Shown: in pieces, positions 30,180 through 38,701 of the stretch
How positions within the stretch are numbered: the stretch's first letter is position 1
How the letters are laid out: every line of letters begins with the position of its first letter
DNA from: Corynebacterium aquilae DSM 44791
Lineage (GTDB): Bacteria; Actinomycetota; Actinomycetes; Mycobacteriales; Mycobacteriaceae
Reading direction: 5' to 3'
NCBI RefSeq assembly: GCF_001941445.1
Contig: NZ_CP009245.1
Location: 1,945,992-2,009,991 of the forward strand
DNA: 64,000 nt
The notes under the pieces: generated by a model
The model's input: only the letters and a program-made list of their open reading frames with translations
Told to the model about the DNA's origin: nothing
The model's database searches: none
Program-made: the position numbers and the translations under genes

Positions 30180-31442
30180 GTGACGTCCTTTGCGGCCAGA
30201 AACCACACCATCGCCCGCTGGCTAACCCGACCCTTCGTGGCCTACCTTCTCGGGTTGGCCGGCATAGCCGGGTTCTTCCTCTTTCACCCCTGCCCCACCG
30301 GGCCCGGGCTGTGTCTGAGCATTCGCCGCGTCATCGACACCGGTGTTTACTGGGCGGGCGCCCGCGCCTTCATCACCGGCGCGCCCCTCTACGACGTGGG
30401 TTTTCCCACCGTCGGCACCACCCTGCCGTTTACCTATCCCCCCAGCGCCGCCCTCGCGTTTGTGCCGCTGACCATCTTCAACCAAGACACCGCCGGCTGG
30501 GTGTTCAGCGCCGTCAACCTGTGCTGGCTTGCGGTGATCCTCCGGATGCTGCTGCCCCAGGCCAGCCCCCGGCTCCGGGCCTGGCTGTGGTGCCTGGCAC
30601 TGCTGGCAGACCCCGTGATCAACACCATCGGCTACGGCCAAATCAACCTCGCCCTCATGGCCCTGGTTCTGCTCGACATCACCCGCGGCCGGGGCCTCGG
30701 TCGCGCCCAAGTACTTATCAAAGCCATCCCACCCGGAATGCTCATCGGCGTGGCCGCCGCCATCAAACTCACCCCCTTAATTTTTGTGCTGGTCTACCTC
30801 ATCCGCCGTGAGCCCAAAGCAATCCTCGGCATGATCGCCGGCGCCGGGATCTCCATCGCCGCCGCAGCAGCACTACGCCCCAGCCTGACCTGGACGTTCT
30901 ACACCAACACCATCTTCCACGCCGGGCGCATCGGCGACCCCGCCTACGCGCTCAATGTCTCCGCCCGCGCCATCGCGGTGCGCGCCACCGACAACCCCAC
31001 CACCCAACTGCTGCTGTGGGCGGTCTTGTGTGCCACCACCCTGCTGCTAGTCAGCTGGGCCGGCTGGCGCCACCGGGCAAACCCCACCACGCTAACCACC
31101 ATCGTCGCCCTCGGCGGGCTCATCATCTCCCCCGTCAGCTGGGCCCACCACTGGGTCTGGCTCATCGCTGCCGCCATCGTGTGCTGGGCGAGCGCCCGCT
31201 GGTTAAGCGTCTGGATCGCCATCGCCACCATCATCGCCCCCACCCACGACTTCCTGCCGCGGGGCAACATGGTCGAATACACCTACACCGCAGCCCAGCA
31301 ACTCGCCTGCGCCCACTACGTCATCCTGGCACTAATCATCTGCCTCACCCTCGCCATCCGAGGTCCCGAAAAGCCGGGCACTCACTGCAAGAACTCATCC
31401 ACCTCGGCCACAAACTTCATGATCTCAAAACGCAACGGATGA
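30180..31442 (+). CDS. mptC: Alpha-(1->2)-mannosyltransferase, MptC / Rv2181 type (GT87)
   Basis: A 420-residue GT-C membrane enzyme of the DUF2029/GT87 family with about ten hydrophobic segments. The first periplasmic loop contains DTGVYWAGARAFITGAPLYD, with the catalytic-type Asp, followed by FTYPPSAAL. The C-terminal half has SPVSWAHHWVW, also typical. Relatives add alpha-1,2-mannose branches to lipomannan. GAGG lies five bases before the GTG start, 13 bases after pknL. The last 61 bases overlap the 3' end of the helical-repeat gene on the other strand, so the C-terminal tail (about 20 hydrophilic residues) may be a recent extension. Confidence 0.85.
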   Translation: MTSFAARNHTIARWLTRPFVAYLLGLAGIAGFFLFHPCPTGPGLCLSIRRVIDTGVYWAGARAFITGAPLYDVGFPTVGTTLPFTYPPSAALAFVPLTIFNQDTAGWVFSAVNLCWLAVILRMLLPQASPRLRAWLWCLALLADPVINTIGYGQINLALMALVLLDITRGRGLGRAQVLIKAIPPGMLIGVAAAIKLTPLIFVLVYLIRREPKAILGMIAGAGISIAAAAALRPSLTWTFYTNTIFHAGRIGDPAYALNVSARAIAVRATDNPTTQLLLWAVLCATTLLLVSWAGWRHRANPTTLTTIVALGGLIISPVSWAHHWVWLIAAAIVCWASARWLSVWIAIATIIAPTHDFLPRGNMVEYTYTAAQQLACAHYVILALIICLTLAIRGPEKPGTHCKNSSTSATNFMISKRNG

Positions 31443-34111
31443 GAGACCAGCTCCGCGTCGGAAAAACACTCCAACGCCTCCATGGCTAAACTGCGCGCCT
31501 GCTCCAGTGCGCCCTGCGAACCCGCAATACGGCCCCGCACATACAACACCTCAGCCCGCTTCACCGCGAAACCAGTCTGCTCGAACCCATCTACGGCGGC
31601 CACCAAGAAATCCGCCGCCTGCGTCGGATAGCCCGCATTAAAACTGGCCAACCCCATCTCCAACGCCCACTGCGCCTCCCGCGCCACCGGTGTGGTCTCC
31701 GCATCGCCCGGAACATTCGCGATCTCCGCACCATGCACCGGATCCAGCAGCAAACGCCGGCGCCTATCCATCAGCTCCTCAATGGTTGCCATATCCTCCA
31801 CCGACGCCGTACCCGGCCGCTGCGACAAGCCAGAAACCAACGCCAGCAGCGCATCCGCATACTCCCCCATCACTCCCTCATCACGATCCGGCGCCTGGGA
31901 AAGGCGCTGCAAAATGTGCACCGCCTCCCGCAAACAACTCACCCCCTCGTCGTACAACTGCGCCTCGAAGAACTGACGCGCAGCCATCGACAACGCCTCC
32001 TGGCTGCTGCGCGGCGACTCCACCTGGCCCGCCAATTGGGCCTGCTCCACCAGGGCGCGGGCTGCGGTCTCGTGGTGGCCGAGTTCCACACTCGCATTAG
32101 CCAACGCGCCATAAAGATGCGCCCGCACCAACACCGCATCCCCCGCGAACCCGGCGCGCTCGCACGCATCCAAGGCATTCTGGGCCACATCGGCGGCCTC
32201 AATAAATCGCTCCTGCCGGTCCAGCAGCAGCGACAAACTCAACCCCGCGGCGGCGTGTGCGAAATTCAGCCCCGCGGCCGCTGAGAGGTTGACCATGTGG
32301 CGCAAGTGCTCAGCCGCGTCCCCCAGCTCTCCCAAAGCCACCGCGGCGCGGGAGGAGAACCGGGCGGCACAAAAACGCACCGCCAGGCTGGATGTGGTTT
32401 CGCTGCGGCAGGCCCGGTCGCTGGCCTCAATGACGGTGGGGAAATCGTCATACATCAAGGCGGTGGCGGCCTCCACTAGTGTGGCCCATGCCGGCTCCAT
32501 CTCGTGGGGTTCCTGGCCGATGACGTCCTCGAGCTGTTCCAGGCTGGGGCCTCCCACCACCCGCTCGATGGGGGCCAGCCACAGGGCTGCCCGCAACGCG
32601 TTAAAGGCGTGCAGCCAGGCTAGGGCCTGCAGTTCGGAGAGCTGGTCGACGATGTTGGGGTCTTGCAGTGCGCTATCTGCGGCGATTTTTTCGATGGCGA
32701 CCAGGGTGGCCATGTCGGTGTACAGCATCCCGCGGCGGGCCATGTCGTCGAGGAGTTGTTCAAATTGCCAGCCCAGTTCCGGCGGGTGTACGTCCAGGGC
32801 CACGTAGGGCTGCTGCTGGGATGCCGGATCTTTCGGGCTGGTTGCGGTGTCGCCACTGCTCGTCGGTGTCTTTGAGGCAGCGGTGGATGGTTGCCAGGCG
32901 GCTGTCATGCCGCTGACGTCGGCGACTTGGTTTGCGCTTGCACCCGTTGGGGCGGGTACGGGTTCGACATCGTAGAGGGCGTCGATTTCTTGGGTTGCGA
33001 GATAGGGGTGTGGGTGGCCTGGGCGCGCGTCGAAAGCTTCGGCGATGTCGCGGGCGAGGGTTTCGAAGAAGCCGCGGGCTTGGGCGACGGTGGGCTGTTC
33101 CAGATCGGCCCGGGCGAAAAAGGGCAGGCTGGCGCCGGGGATGGTGGTGCTAAGGATTTGGTCGGGGTGGGTGCTTTCGACCGCGTGGAGGAGCAGCGCG
33201 GCGGCGGTGGCGGCTTCCAATAGGACCAGCGGTGATTCGGCGTGTTTAAACCAGGGCATGTGGCGCTGCAGGATGCGCACACCACGGTCGAGCCGGTCGG
33301 GGCGGCCAGCCGCCCCGGAGATCGCCAGGTAGCGCAGGTGCAGGGGCAAGCTTTCGAAGAAGCGGGGCGATTGTTGGTAGCGGCGGTAGGCCCGGATGTG
33401 GGCGGCCCAGGCCCGGTCGTCGCGGCCGGTGCGCAGCCAGGGTTCCAATAGGATGCTCAGGAGTTCTTCCGGGTTGCGGTCGCATTGGGGGGCGTCGACG
33501 GCGAGTGCCTGGTCGCCGAGTTCGACAGCTTTTTCCCATTGCTTGTCCCTGATGGCGTGCATGATTTCGTAGCCGGGTTCGCAGCCGAGGCAGTCGCTGA
33601 GTTCGCTGCGGGGGGCTGCGAGGTATTTGTGGAAGTAGGTTTCGGCGGCAGCGGTTTCGCCCATTTCGCGCAGCCAGCTGTAGCGGCGGATGTAGACGGG
33701 GCGCAAGGATTGGCCGCGGGAGAGGTAGAACTTCTCCATGTGGTCGAAGATGTCTTCGCACTGTTGGTAGGGCACCGTGGGCACGGAGCGGACGGCGACG
33801 AGGACGTACTTGTAGTACCAGCCGACGTCGTTGCGGGCGTCGTCGTCGAAGAGTTCCGGGTGGCTGTTCAGCGTGGATTCTAGCCACACGAACGGGGCGA
33901 TGACCTCGGTGAGTTGGCCGCCCATGGCATAGGCCCCGCAGAGTTGGCTGTAGCAGTAGACGGCGAGTTCCATCTCGCCTGCGTCTTCGGCGGCGGTGGC
34001 GGCTTGGGCCCATAGGGCGGAACAGCTCGGCCCCCAGGGTGCGCCGAGCGCACGGTCGATGAGGTCGTCAAGATCGCGGTCGGGGCTTTGGGGGTTTTGC
34101 TGTTCGTCCAT
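31382..34111 (-). CDS. Large helical-repeat (TPR-like) protein, function unknown
   Basis: A 909-residue soluble protein with no signal peptide or membrane segment. It is built of helix pairs of roughly 34-40 residues with TPR-like patterns, such as ALWAQAATAAEDAGEMELAV near the N terminus. EVLYVRGRIAGSQGALEQAR near the C terminus is similar. A low-complexity Pro/Thr/Ser linker (about 395-440) splits it into two helical halves. TPR proteins usually act as scaffolds, and TPR is a classic partner fold for Hsp90, whose relative is encoded 74 bases upstream in the same direction. No enzymatic motif was found. The ATG at 34111 is preferred over a TTG two codons upstream. Third-position base use flips near 32,350. 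Confidence 0.75.
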   Translation of the reverse strand: MDEQQNPQSPDRDLDDLIDRALGAPWGPSCSALWAQAATAAEDAGEMELAVYCYSQLCGAYAMGGQLTEVIAPFVWLESTLNSHPELFDDDARNDVGWYYKYVLVAVRSVPTVPYQQCEDIFDHMEKFYLSRGQSLRPVYIRRYSWLREMGETAAAETYFHKYLAAPRSELSDCLGCEPGYEIMHAIRDKQWEKAVELGDQALAVDAPQCDRNPEELLSILLEPWLRTGRDDRAWAAHIRAYRRYQQSPRFFESLPLHLRYLAISGAAGRPDRLDRGVRILQRHMPWFKHAESPLVLLEAATAAALLLHAVESTHPDQILSTTIPGASLPFFARADLEQPTVAQARGFFETLARDIAEAFDARPGHPHPYLATQEIDALYDVEPVPAPTGASANQVADVSGMTAAWQPSTAASKTPTSSGDTATSPKDPASQQQPYVALDVHPPELGWQFEQLLDDMARRGMLYTDMATLVAIEKIAADSALQDPNIVDQLSELQALAWLHAFNALRAALWLAPIERVVGGPSLEQLEDVIGQEPHEMEPAWATLVEAATALMYDDFPTVIEASDRACRSETTSSLAVRFCAARFSSRAAVALGELGDAAEHLRHMVNLSAAAGLNFAHAAAGLSLSLLLDRQERFIEAADVAQNALDACERAGFAGDAVLVRAHLYGALANASVELGHHETAARALVEQAQLAGQVESPRSSQEALSMAARQFFEAQLYDEGVSCLREAVHILQRLSQAPDRDEGVMGEYADALLALVSGLSQRPGTASVEDMATIEELMDRRRRLLLDPVHGAEIANVPGDAETTPVAREAQWALEMGLASFNAGYPTQAADFLVAAVDGFEQTGFAVKRAEVLYVRGRIAGSQGALEQARSLAMEALECFSDAELVSHPLRFEIMKFVAEVDEFLQ

Positions 34112-34185
34112 ACCCAAAACTTACCCGTTTGCGGGGTTGGTTTTTGTACTTTGCGGGTCGTGGTGTGGCGGGGTTTAGCCCGGTG

Positions 34186-36000
34186 TTAGGTGGATAGGCA
34201 GCGGGCGATGAGGGTGCTGAAGACACTGGTGGACCAGGATCTAGCTTGGGCGTTCATGGGGTGGCGGCCCGCCAGGAGGGCTTGGACGTAAAAGCCGCGG
34301 ATGGCGGAGAATACGATTTCTTCGTCGCTGATTTTGCCGGCGAGTTCGTAGACGATGGTGGCGTGGGCGTTAAAGACGAGCATGCCGCGCCCCCGGCTGG
34401 CGGAGGTGGCGGAGCGGGCTTTGTCCATGGCGTCGACGAGCCCGGCGAAGGGGCCACTGGCGGTGTCTTTGGATTGGGTGGAGATGACCCGGCCGGCGAT
34501 GTCGGCGTCGGGTAGGAACAAGACCGGCAGGGTGGTGGGTTCGAAGCTGCGGATTTCCACGGTGATGTTTTGTCCGGCCAGGGCTCGTTCGGCGAGTGCT
34601 TTTAGTGGCAGCAGCGCGGCTTCGTCGGCGATGTCTAGCGGGTCGAGGACACCGATGATTTCTTCGATATCCAGGGCGCTGATGCGTGCCTGTGGCCGGT
34701 CGAGGGCGTATTGGCCGAGGAGTTGTTCATCGAAGGCGTATCCGGCGTTGATGATGCATAGCCCGTTGGCGGCCGCGACGGGTTCGATGGTGCGGAATTG
34801 GGTGTCGTTGGGGCAGTAGCGAACGGCCCCGTATTCCTCGATGATGGCGTCGAGGGTTTTGCTGCCGACGGTGGTGCTGAAGGGCACGGTGCGGGCGATC
34901 AGGTCGCGGGTGTCGCGGTCGGCGATGGCTAGCGATTTGAGGCCTTGGATGTGGGCGGCGGCAAAGCGGGAGAATTTTTCGGGGTTGCTGTCGGCGAGGG
35001 TGTTGAGCCAGTCGCGGATTTGGGCGCCAAGCGCCTCGCGGGTGTCGGCGAGGAGTTCGTCGTCGAAGAGTTGTTCCCGGGAGGCGGTGGGTTTGAGTTG
35101 GTCGCTGTCGATGACCAGTCGCACGAAGTAGGCCCAGGGTGGCAGCAGGTTGGTGATGTTGTCGCCGAGCAGCATGCGGCGCAGGTAGACGCGGTGGTTT
35201 TGGATGGAGCCGGGGGCTACTCCCCCATCGACGATGTAGGCAACCCCCACCAGGCCTGCGGCGGGAACGTCGACGGTGAAGGAGTCTAAGGGGTTAAAAC
35301 CGAAGTTGCTGGCGCACCAGGCGTCGCGTTCGCGGCTGCGCATCTCAAAGGGGGCGGGCTGGCGGCACAGTTGTGAGGAGGTGAAGCTGTCGCTTGCGCG
35401 TTCCACGGTGACGTCGAGCGGGAGGTAGCGGCCGTAGTGTTCGATCAGGCGGCCGAGTACGCCGATGGTGTTGAGGCGGTCGCCGGGGCGCAGGGTGAGT
35501 ACGACGGCGGTGCCGGCTTCGGGTAGCTGGGTGGGGGCGGTGTCGGCGGCTGCTTGGCGCACGCTCCAGGTGCCGCCGGCGTGCCCGGACCAGACGATGG
35601 TGTCGGGGTTGGGGGTGCGGGCGCTGCGGGAGTAGACCTCGATGGTGGAGGACACCATGAAGCAGGACAGAAGGCCGATGCCGAATTGGCCGAGGAAGTC
35701 TTGGCGGGCCATGCCCCATTCGTCTTTTTTCGACGATGCCCCGATGGTGGACAGGAGCTGTTCGGCGTCTTCAAGAGTGAGCCCGATGCCGGTGTCGATG
35801 ATGGTGAGGGTGGTTTCGCCCAGGATGAAACGCATCCGGGTGGGGCAGTCGGGGTCGATGTCTTGGCGAGCGGTGATGGCGTCGAGCCCGTTTTGGAGTA
35901 GTTCCCTGACGAATACGGTGGGCCCCGAATAAAGGTTGGTGCTGAGCAGTTCGACGATGCCTGCGAGATCCACTTGGAAGTTGTGAACAGGTGTGGTCAT
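34186..36000 (-). CDS. Divergent Hsp90 (HtpG-like) family ATPase
   Basis: A 604-residue protein with an N-terminal GHKL (Bergerat) ATPase domain. The N-box is ELLQNGLDA (Glu33, Asn37, Asp40), the G1 box is DTGIG (69-73), and the G2 box is GQFGIGL (104-110). The middle domain carries VYLRRMLLGDN and SRE (307-309), matching the HtpG catalytic Arg region. The C-terminal third diverges and shows no clear HtpG dimerisation motif. Hsp90 proteins are ATP-driven chaperones. This one is probably a specialised member working with the co-encoded TPR-like and YbjN-like proteins. It is 60 bases from the gene upstream and 74 from the one downstream. Confidence 0.87.
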   Translation of the reverse strand: MTTPVHNFQVDLAGIVELLSTNLYSGPTVFVRELLQNGLDAITARQDIDPDCPTRMRFILGETTLTIIDTGIGLTLEDAEQLLSTIGASSKKDEWGMARQDFLGQFGIGLLSCFMVSSTIEVYSRSARTPNPDTIVWSGHAGGTWSVRQAAADTAPTQLPEAGTAVVLTLRPGDRLNTIGVLGRLIEHYGRYLPLDVTVERASDSFTSSQLCRQPAPFEMRSRERDAWCASNFGFNPLDSFTVDVPAAGLVGVAYIVDGGVAPGSIQNHRVYLRRMLLGDNITNLLPPWAYFVRLVIDSDQLKPTASREQLFDDELLADTREALGAQIRDWLNTLADSNPEKFSRFAAAHIQGLKSLAIADRDTRDLIARTVPFSTTVGSKTLDAIIEEYGAVRYCPNDTQFRTIEPVAAANGLCIINAGYAFDEQLLGQYALDRPQARISALDIEEIIGVLDPLDIADEAALLPLKALAERALAGQNITVEIRSFEPTTLPVLFLPDADIAGRVISTQSKDTASGPFAGLVDAMDKARSATSASRGRGMLVFNAHATIVYELAGKISDEEIVFSAIRGFYVQALLAGRHPMNAQARSWSTSVFSTLIARCLST

Positions 36001-36060
36001 GCTGGGTTACCAACCTTTCGTGCGTCTTAAGGTGTCGGGGCCGGGTGGGTGGGTTGGGGG

Positions 36061-36507
36061 TTAGGGTGCGGCGATGAGTTGGGGGTCGAAGGTGGCGACG
36101 TAGTCTTCCATGCTTTCCAGGCAGGCGGCCAGGGCGGTCATGAGGAATTCTTCGAGTTGCTCGTCGGTGAGTCCGTGGCGGACTTCGAGGTTGCATTCGA
36201 CGCGGGCGAAGATGTGGCCGCTGTCGAGTTGGTCGGGGAAGGCCATGCCGTAGACGGTGGAGGCGTTCCATTTGTTGGCCCACGCCGCCAGCGAGGATAG
36301 GGCTTCGGCGGGCAGCATTTTGTTGCTGGAGGCCATCGACACGGTCAAAAAGGGGCTTAAGGTGGCGGGGTCGATGATGGTGCCGAAGGAGGAGAAGGCG
36401 GTGACGATGAGGTTGGGGTTGTCCTCGCTGGTGTCGTAGCGGACGTTTTTGTTGTCGAGCAGCTGCGTGACACGGGCGCGGGTGATTGCTGGGGTGTTGT
36501 CTGCCAT
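36061..36507 (-). CDS. YbjN-like (type III secretion chaperone fold) protein, second copy
   Basis: A 148-residue protein with alternating strands and helices. It starts ITRARVTQLLDNKNVRYDTSEDN and has FLTVSMASSNKMLPAEAL in the middle. A C-terminal helix region follows DEQLEEFLMTALAACLESME. The pattern fits YbjN-domain proteins, which resemble type III secretion chaperones and are usually small binding proteins. It shares the DEQL-(E/T)-x-F motif near the C terminus with the preceding gene, so the two are probably an ancient duplication. It starts only four bases after that gene. Confidence 0.7.
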   Translation of the reverse strand: MADNTPAITRARVTQLLDNKNVRYDTSEDNPNLIVTAFSSFGTIIDPATLSPFLTVSMASSNKMLPAEALSSLAAWANKWNASTVYGMAFPDQLDSGHIFARVECNLEVRHGLTDEQLEEFLMTALAACLESMEDYVATFDPQLIAAP

Positions 36508-36511
36508 GGTG

Positions 36512-36994
36512 CTAGTTCTTTTCGCTGGTGTCGTTGAGGTTCATGCCGGCGTTGCCGCGATTGCTGTCGGCGCTGTCGGGTGCTGGTGGCGCGATGTCGG
36601 GGAAGTGTTCGGCTAGCCGTTGCGCCATGTGGCCCATGCTGCCGATGGAGGAGCGGAAAAAGCCGGTGAGTTGCTCATCGGTGGCGCCGGTGCGGGTGGG
36701 AAGTGCGGTCGACATGAGGATGCGGGAGGGTTTCTCGTCGACGATGCACAGTTTTGGCACCAGCATTTCTTTGTTGAGTTCGGGTACGAGCCGGTGGGCG
36801 CGGGTGAGGTGTTCGCCGGTGATTTCTGCTTGCCACATGGCGTAGATGTGCAGGTAGTTGTCGGTGATTTTGACCCAGGTGACCAGGTTGATGAAGGGGA
36901 TGATGATTTCGTCGTCGCCTTCGGGCCGGTAGTTGAGGTTGTCGGCGGCCGCGATGGCGGCGATGCGTTGTTGGGTGCAGGCTGGCAATGTCAT
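36512..36994 (-). CDS. YbjN-like protein, first copy
   Basis: A 160-residue protein resembling its downstream neighbour. The N-terminal part RIAAIAAADNLNYRPEGDDEI is followed by beta-rich segments and a helical stretch around TDEQLTGFFRSSIGSMGHMA. A short disordered C terminus ends it. It is the promoter-proximal gene of the four-gene set, with GGGA about eight bases before its ATG. About 250 bases upstream separate it from aroG, so the promoter of the set may lie there. No enzymatic motif is seen. Confidence 0.68.
   Translation of the reverse strand: MTLPACTQQRIAAIAAADNLNYRPEGDDEIIIPFINLVTWVKITDNYLHIYAMWQAEITGEHLTRAHRLVPELNKEMLVPKLCIVDEKPSRILMSTALPTRTGATDEQLTGFFRSSIGSMGHMAQRLAEHFPDIAPPAPDSADSNRGNAGMNLNDTSEKN

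Positions 36995-37252: not shown

Positions 37253-38701
<1,449 letters not shown>

Follow-up and report, generated by a model that had tools for sequence, protein, structure and literature searches.

A non-HtpG Hsp90 paralogue and its near-obligate helical-repeat partner in an accessory gene cluster of Corynebacterium aquilae

Gene content and accessory position of the locus

Four intact open reading frames lie in tandem on the minus strand of the window, by which we mean the whole 64,000-nucleotide stretch analysed from the single-contig, 2.93-Mb genome of Corynebacterium aquilae DSM 44791. They encode a YbjN-like protein of 160 residues (YbjN-1, 36512..36994, the first gene of the cluster), a second one of 148 residues 4 bases downstream (YbjN-2, 36061..36507), a 604-residue Hsp90 paralogue of the PRK14083/NF010683 family (34186..36000), assigned from its profile score, residues and structural model, and a helical-repeat protein (31382..34111; 909 residues counted from the ATG), supported by reading frame, alignment and model; successive genes are separated by 4, 60 and 74 bases. 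The preliminary description had these frames and families right, in that both YbjN proteins exceed the Pfam cut-off, the N box, glycine boxes and SRE arginine of the Hsp90 are intact and the 909-residue protein is helical; of its gaps, 4 and 74 stand and 53 should read 60. The 3' end of the helical-repeat gene overlaps by 61 bases a convergent GT87-type glycosyltransferase gene (30180..31442, plus strand), which lies outside the system and is mptC-like, to use the name given in that description. The upstream flank is aroG (37253..38656, minus strand), encoding a class II DAHP synthase.

An empty site is seen in four relatives, where the convergent aroG is the next gene after pknL and the two matched stretches lie ~75–120 bases apart wherever the match reaches the end of pknL; in the window, the GT87 gene and the four cluster genes stand between the two. 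The locus is thus accessory, as had been supposed, and the pknL–aroG junction is otherwise empty, although the earlier remark that C. glutamicum lacks these genes between mptC and aroG needs correcting, since the ancestral junction is pknL–aroG and not mptC–aroG. C. glutamicum, as a control, gave a signal in the family search and appears among the species with HTPG sequences in Chen et al. 2006 (PMC1525184). The Hsp90 family cut-off was exceeded in 21 of 201 Corynebacterium genomes, the named sequences nearest to the window Hsp90 are mostly from this genus, and the neighbours of the cluster vary from lineage to lineage. A GT87 relative (33–42% identical) is found beyond an orn-like gene in several relatives, the window copy lying between pknL and the cluster. 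In two genomes (G212, locus L179, and G524, locus L314) a frameshift that reflects decay or sequencing error splits the Hsp90 gene, and the partner frame is still open.

The Hsp90 paralogue and its helical-repeat partner

The window Hsp90 matched the NCBIfam model NF010683 (PRK14083, 'HSP90 family protein') with 588 bits over residues 5–602 of 604, well above the curated cut-off of 455 bits, whereas the HtpG model NF003555 (cut-off 371 bits) gave 149 bits over residues 6–385 only. Scores against NF010683 were bimodal across the class genomes, with 46 of 395 above the cut-off and most other matches at ~165–200 bits, as for HtpG. In a tree of 61 Hsp90s, the PRK14083 family and the Listeria and Paenibacillus proteins fell on one side of a branch with 100/99 support, and HtpG lay elsewhere on a branch of 2.2 substitutions. 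Model scores and tree together rule out an ordinary HtpG, an identity whose finding the preliminary description had set against its own proposal. The window protein shares with HtpG its fold and ATPase residues; the family was already known by sequence, although in the literature found it appears without its downstream partner. Chen et al. 2006 recognised three groups of bacterial Hsp90 (A, B and C) and assigned two HTPG genes to Streptomyces coelicolor (PMC1525184); NF010683 is probably their 'HTPG group C', a link that we infer.

Residues E33, N37, D69, G71, G73 and R308, which comprise the GHKL ATPase residues and the catalytic arginine of the middle domain, are invariant among 36 aligned sequences, and the ATPase site is intact. 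The structural model (pLDDT 84.5) gave a full-length Foldseek match to Hsp90, TRAP1 and HtpG (E ~1e-34), consistent with a complete N-M-C Hsp90 architecture. Neither MEEVD nor any other conserved C-terminal tail was present in the 36 sequences. The HtpG residues that contact DnaK and bind clients appear diverged in the window protein, an observation to which we give no weight. NF010683 has a single match in the host genome and a search with the HtpG model returned only the window gene and one marginal 34-residue stretch, with no HtpG found; the window protein is therefore the only Hsp90 found in this genome.

Across 60 Hsp90 loci of the genus and the wider class (L158–L217), a helical-repeat gene lay immediately downstream on the same strand in 59 and after one extra open reading frame in the remaining one (L168). 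A family HMM placed the partner within 122 bases of the Hsp90 gene in 58 loci, most commonly at a spacing of −4, that is, a 4-base overlap; at L201 there is no N-domain partner, and a different, 297-residue TPR-like frame overlaps the Hsp90 gene by 4 bases. Public genome records gave the same pairing in 79 of 80 named loci, all from Actinomycetota. Among 395 class genomes, counted by hand, the N-domain of the partner was present in 45 of 46 genomes with a PRK14083-family Hsp90 versus 4 of 349 without (Fisher p ~2e-53), absences being slightly soft because only a few candidates are scored in each genome. The repeat protein is rarely found without the Hsp90, the opposite of the outcome that the preliminary description had set against its proposal. 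Only 1 of 55 genomes with HtpG alone contained the N-domain, and none of the 11 HtpG loci scanned had one nearby. The helical-repeat protein is thus a near-obligate partner of the non-HtpG Hsp90. Full-length orphan partners without a nearby Hsp90 were seen at L308, L309, L310 and L313, the neighbourhoods of L308 and L309 being alike. An apparent Hsp90–partner fusion in one genome (G440, a 1,637-residue frame) was rejected as merely a long frame, the partner being encoded in another.

The partner is modelled as almost wholly helical (pLDDT 84.7), with two solenoids joined by a low-confidence linker. The N-terminal solenoid, or N-domain (residues ~10–380; 32972..34084, minus strand), matched no Pfam or NCBIfam model and aligned in hhalign comparisons with the Listeria partners (E 1.5e-28 and 2.2e-29) and the Paenibacillus partner (E 5.4e-37). 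The C-terminal solenoid (residues ~540–908; 31388..32494, minus strand) is predicted to be a TPR superhelix whose nearest PDB entry by Foldseek is the TPR domain of LGN/Pins (E 6e-8, ~13% identity); Pfam TPR matches to the protein stay below the cut-off. Partner length varies from ~380 to 1,000 residues in the surveyed loci. Three cysteines of the N-domain (C174-x2-C177 and C210; 33482..33592, minus strand) occurred together in 39 of the 41 Actinomycetota and Bacillota N-domains compared and are placed by the model in two inter-helix loops, two helices apart, positions that make a metal or disulphide site likely.

Relatives in other phyla and the YbjN genes

In Listeria (L324, 7989–11774), the Hsp90 family gene is followed by two tandem N-domain partner genes; the next gene codes for an SMI1/KNR4 protein, and the ferritin gene fri adjoins the locus. 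In Paenibacillus, the partner consists of the N-domain alone (353 residues) and its gene overlaps that of the Hsp90 by 4 bases. Judged by the profile alignments above, both are homologues of the window partner, and since the N-domain is the sole partner in Paenibacillus and occurs as two tandem copies in Listeria, it is the conserved core of the protein.

Salmonella, Escherichia coli, Pseudomonas aeruginosa and Xanthomonas also have an Hsp90-like gene with a 764–774-residue repeat protein encoded 1–36 bases further on (L319, 4962–9109; L320, 8001–12144; L323, 11881–16122; L322, 8947–13170). The Salmonella Hsp90 scored 286 bits against NF010683, below the family cut-off, and profile–profile comparison of the Pseudomonadota and window partners gave a probability of 68% (E 4.6e-5) over ~200 columns that include a Cys-x2-Cys. 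These pairs are analogous to that of the window, the homology of their partners to the window partner being suggestive only. The E. coli pair lies between fdhD and yiiG and occurred in 149 of 5,426 genomes, and the gene order suggests that the P. aeruginosa pair is PA1068–PA1069. A Pseudanabaena plasmid (L325, 7210–12792) has an 877-residue Hsp90-like ATPase next to a TIR protein, and two genes further downstream a TPR gene; the ATPase was set aside as it groups with a long-branch ATPase.

Both small proteins of the window exceed the gathering cut-off of Pfam YbjN (PF10722, 22 bits), with 41.8 bits for YbjN-2 and 24.1 for YbjN-1, and belong to the YbjN/TY-chaperone superfamily as set out in PMC9503650 (TY-Chap1-3). 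The YbjN fold, chaperone-like according to PMC9503650 and the papers cited there, resembles that of type III secretion chaperones. YbjN-1 and YbjN-2 lie on opposite sides of a split with 100/96 support in the YbjN tree, which points to an old and probably heteromeric pair. Of 22 Corynebacterium loci, 15 have YbjN genes adjoining the Hsp90–partner pair, in varied order, and these 15 represent about eight gene contexts that are unrelated; the order YbjN–YbjN–Hsp90–repeat recurs in Actinobaculum, Gleimia, Actinomyces and Schaalia (Actinomycetaceae), and in Cellulomonas YbjN genes stand beside the pair. Streptomyces and most other loci have no YbjN gene at the pair. Conversely, an Actinomyces oris plasmid carries YbjN–YbjN–repeat without an Hsp90, and at two loci (L311, 7532–9609; L312, 7969–10019) a YbjN gene overlaps an N-domain–YbjN fusion with no PRK14083-family Hsp90 nearby. 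The core consists of two genes, Hsp90 and helical-repeat, and the YbjN pair is optional. The self-contained four-gene chaperone complex of the preliminary description keeps its dedicated repeat partner and its YbjN linkage and loses the status of an obligatory four-gene unit; its observation is confirmed and its interpretation partly supported. Arrays with eight YbjN frames were seen at L161 (4431–16401) and L178, upstream of a repeat protein, an Hsp90 and a second, short N-domain protein. The search found four YbjN genes in the host genome, two of them in the cluster, and a second, divergent YbjN pair lies away from any Hsp90 (C1:124590–125375, L369).

A candidate chaperone system and its alternatives

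We consider it probable, with some reserve, that the cluster encodes an accessory machine built on Hsp90, with a co-chaperone or client adaptor dedicated to it. Gene pairing, an intact ATPase site and the folds are observed; complex formation, docking of the N-domain and client handling by TPR and YbjN elements would be the further steps of this reading. The helical-repeat protein would act as co-chaperone or client adaptor, its N-domain, the cross-phylum part that contains the three-cysteine site, docking on the Hsp90 dimer and its C-terminal TPR superhelix presenting client segments; the LGN/Pins TPR domain binds extended peptides. The YbjN heteropair may hold an exposed client segment before hand-off, and the client would then be remodelled or activated when ATP drives the Hsp90 to close. 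Docking cannot use the MEEVD–TPR grip of eukaryotes, since no tail is conserved on this Hsp90, and the mode of contact must differ. We caution that the YbjN step is not general, since Streptomyces loci lack these genes, and the few N-domain proteins that occur without a PRK14083-family Hsp90 count against this reading. A recurrent third gene that might encode the client was not found among 104 neighbouring proteins, whose most frequent family has three members. Nor is the behaviour that of a classical heat-shock system: a search upstream of the cluster gave no HAIR, CIRCE or SigH-like site, and the transcript of PA1069, the presumed Pseudomonas partner, drops at high temperature, when that of htpG increases (PMC4957987).

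The arrangement recalls that of eukaryotic Hsp90 with its TPR co-chaperones (Hop, FKBP51/52, PP5, AIP), in that an Hsp90 is likewise combined with a TPR or helical-repeat protein and TPR repeats are present in the partner model, but the window Hsp90 lacks MEEVD and the partner TPR is nearest to LGN/Pins rather than Hop. To our knowledge, dedicated Hsp90 partners of the helical-repeat kind are usually thought to be confined to eukaryotes; the recurrence of the two-gene pair in actinobacteria and Bacillota suggests that some bacterial Hsp90s have one too. AtcJ of Shewanella (PMC6715715) is also a dedicated bacterial co-chaperone, but a J-domain partner of DnaK and not a helical-repeat protein that serves Hsp90. 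No description of the partner was found in the open-licence literature, in which PRK14083 is named only in work on a fish, and an earlier description elsewhere is possible. The arguments seem to us about evenly balanced for the broader proposition that these genes represent a second, old bacterial Hsp90 system, in which a non-HtpG Hsp90 would work with its own helical-repeat co-chaperone, marked by the three-cysteine N-domain, independently of the eukaryotic Hop/FKBP route. Such a system would span Actinomycetota and Bacillota and would extend, with a partner that is either analogous or very remote, to Pseudomonadota, among them P. aeruginosa, Salmonella and some E. coli, the YbjN heteropair having been added in corynebacteria and Actinomycetaceae. 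The conserved pair offers a concrete candidate co-chaperone, and Listeria, P. aeruginosa, some E. coli and Streptomyces, all easily grown, have such a pair as well. How Hsp90 partners evolved and what the non-HtpG bacterial Hsp90 does can therefore be tested directly, and a function comes within reach for some YbjN proteins and for a 350-residue domain so far undescribed.

The strongest rival to a co-chaperone role, though an unlikely one, is that the helical-repeat protein is the private client of the Hsp90, which would exist to fold or activate it; the repeat protein would then perform the actual job, as a scaffold or sensor regulated by the YbjN pair. Near-obligate pairing and translational coupling would fit a chaperone and its client equally well. 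The large, two-lobed and variable form of the partner (~380–1,000 residues) is client-like, and orphan partners that have YbjN genes and no Hsp90 give the impression that the partner itself does the work; however, the orphans at L308–L310 and L313 would then need another folder, and the 320–350-residue partners of Listeria and Paenibacillus seem too simple to require an Hsp90 of their own. We think it improbable, more so than a private client, that the locus is a stress- or redox-sensing module in which the three-cysteine site binds metal or senses oxidation, the Hsp90–repeat complex switches a signalling target and YbjN acts as a regulator, as its Pfam name has it. The near-invariance of C174, C177 and C210 in the modelled loops and the ferritin gene next to the Listeria copy would suit such a module, but structural zinc might alone account for the cysteines, and among the 104 lineage-dependent neighbours there is no recurrent regulator, sensor kinase or redox enzyme.

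A role in defence, which the preliminary description had entertained, is not supported, and we regard an anti-phage or conflict system as very improbable. The distribution is patchy, as the empty site and the minority of Corynebacterium genomes with the family show, YbjN-like TY-chaperones are present in conflict systems (PMC9503650), and the N-terminal domain of the Hsp90 resembles TmtA and restriction-associated ATPases. However, PADLOC matches of the Hsp90 are confined to that shared ATPase domain, with none for the partner or the YbjN proteins, and no defence family matches more than one of the 104 neighbours, one such match being the PASTA tail of PknL. The window YbjN also differs from the ARG-centric TY-Chap1 systems, scoring 17.3 bits against the TY-Chap1 model PF22551 (cut-off 27) with no ADP-ribose-processing gene seen alongside. 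Partner matches occurred in only 5 of 72,556 plasmid records and, among 2.9 million viral contigs, as one weak and partial match; the E. coli pair, moreover, sits at a chromosomal site amid housekeeping genes. Least probable of all is that four unrelated genes are neighbours by chance or operon convenience: YbjN genes do occur elsewhere in Corynebacterium genomes, but only four were found in the 2.9-Mb host genome, two of them here, their linkage is seen repeatedly, in contexts that are unrelated and also in a fusion, and for the Hsp90–partner pair, present in all 60 class loci and in Bacillota, chance is already refuted.
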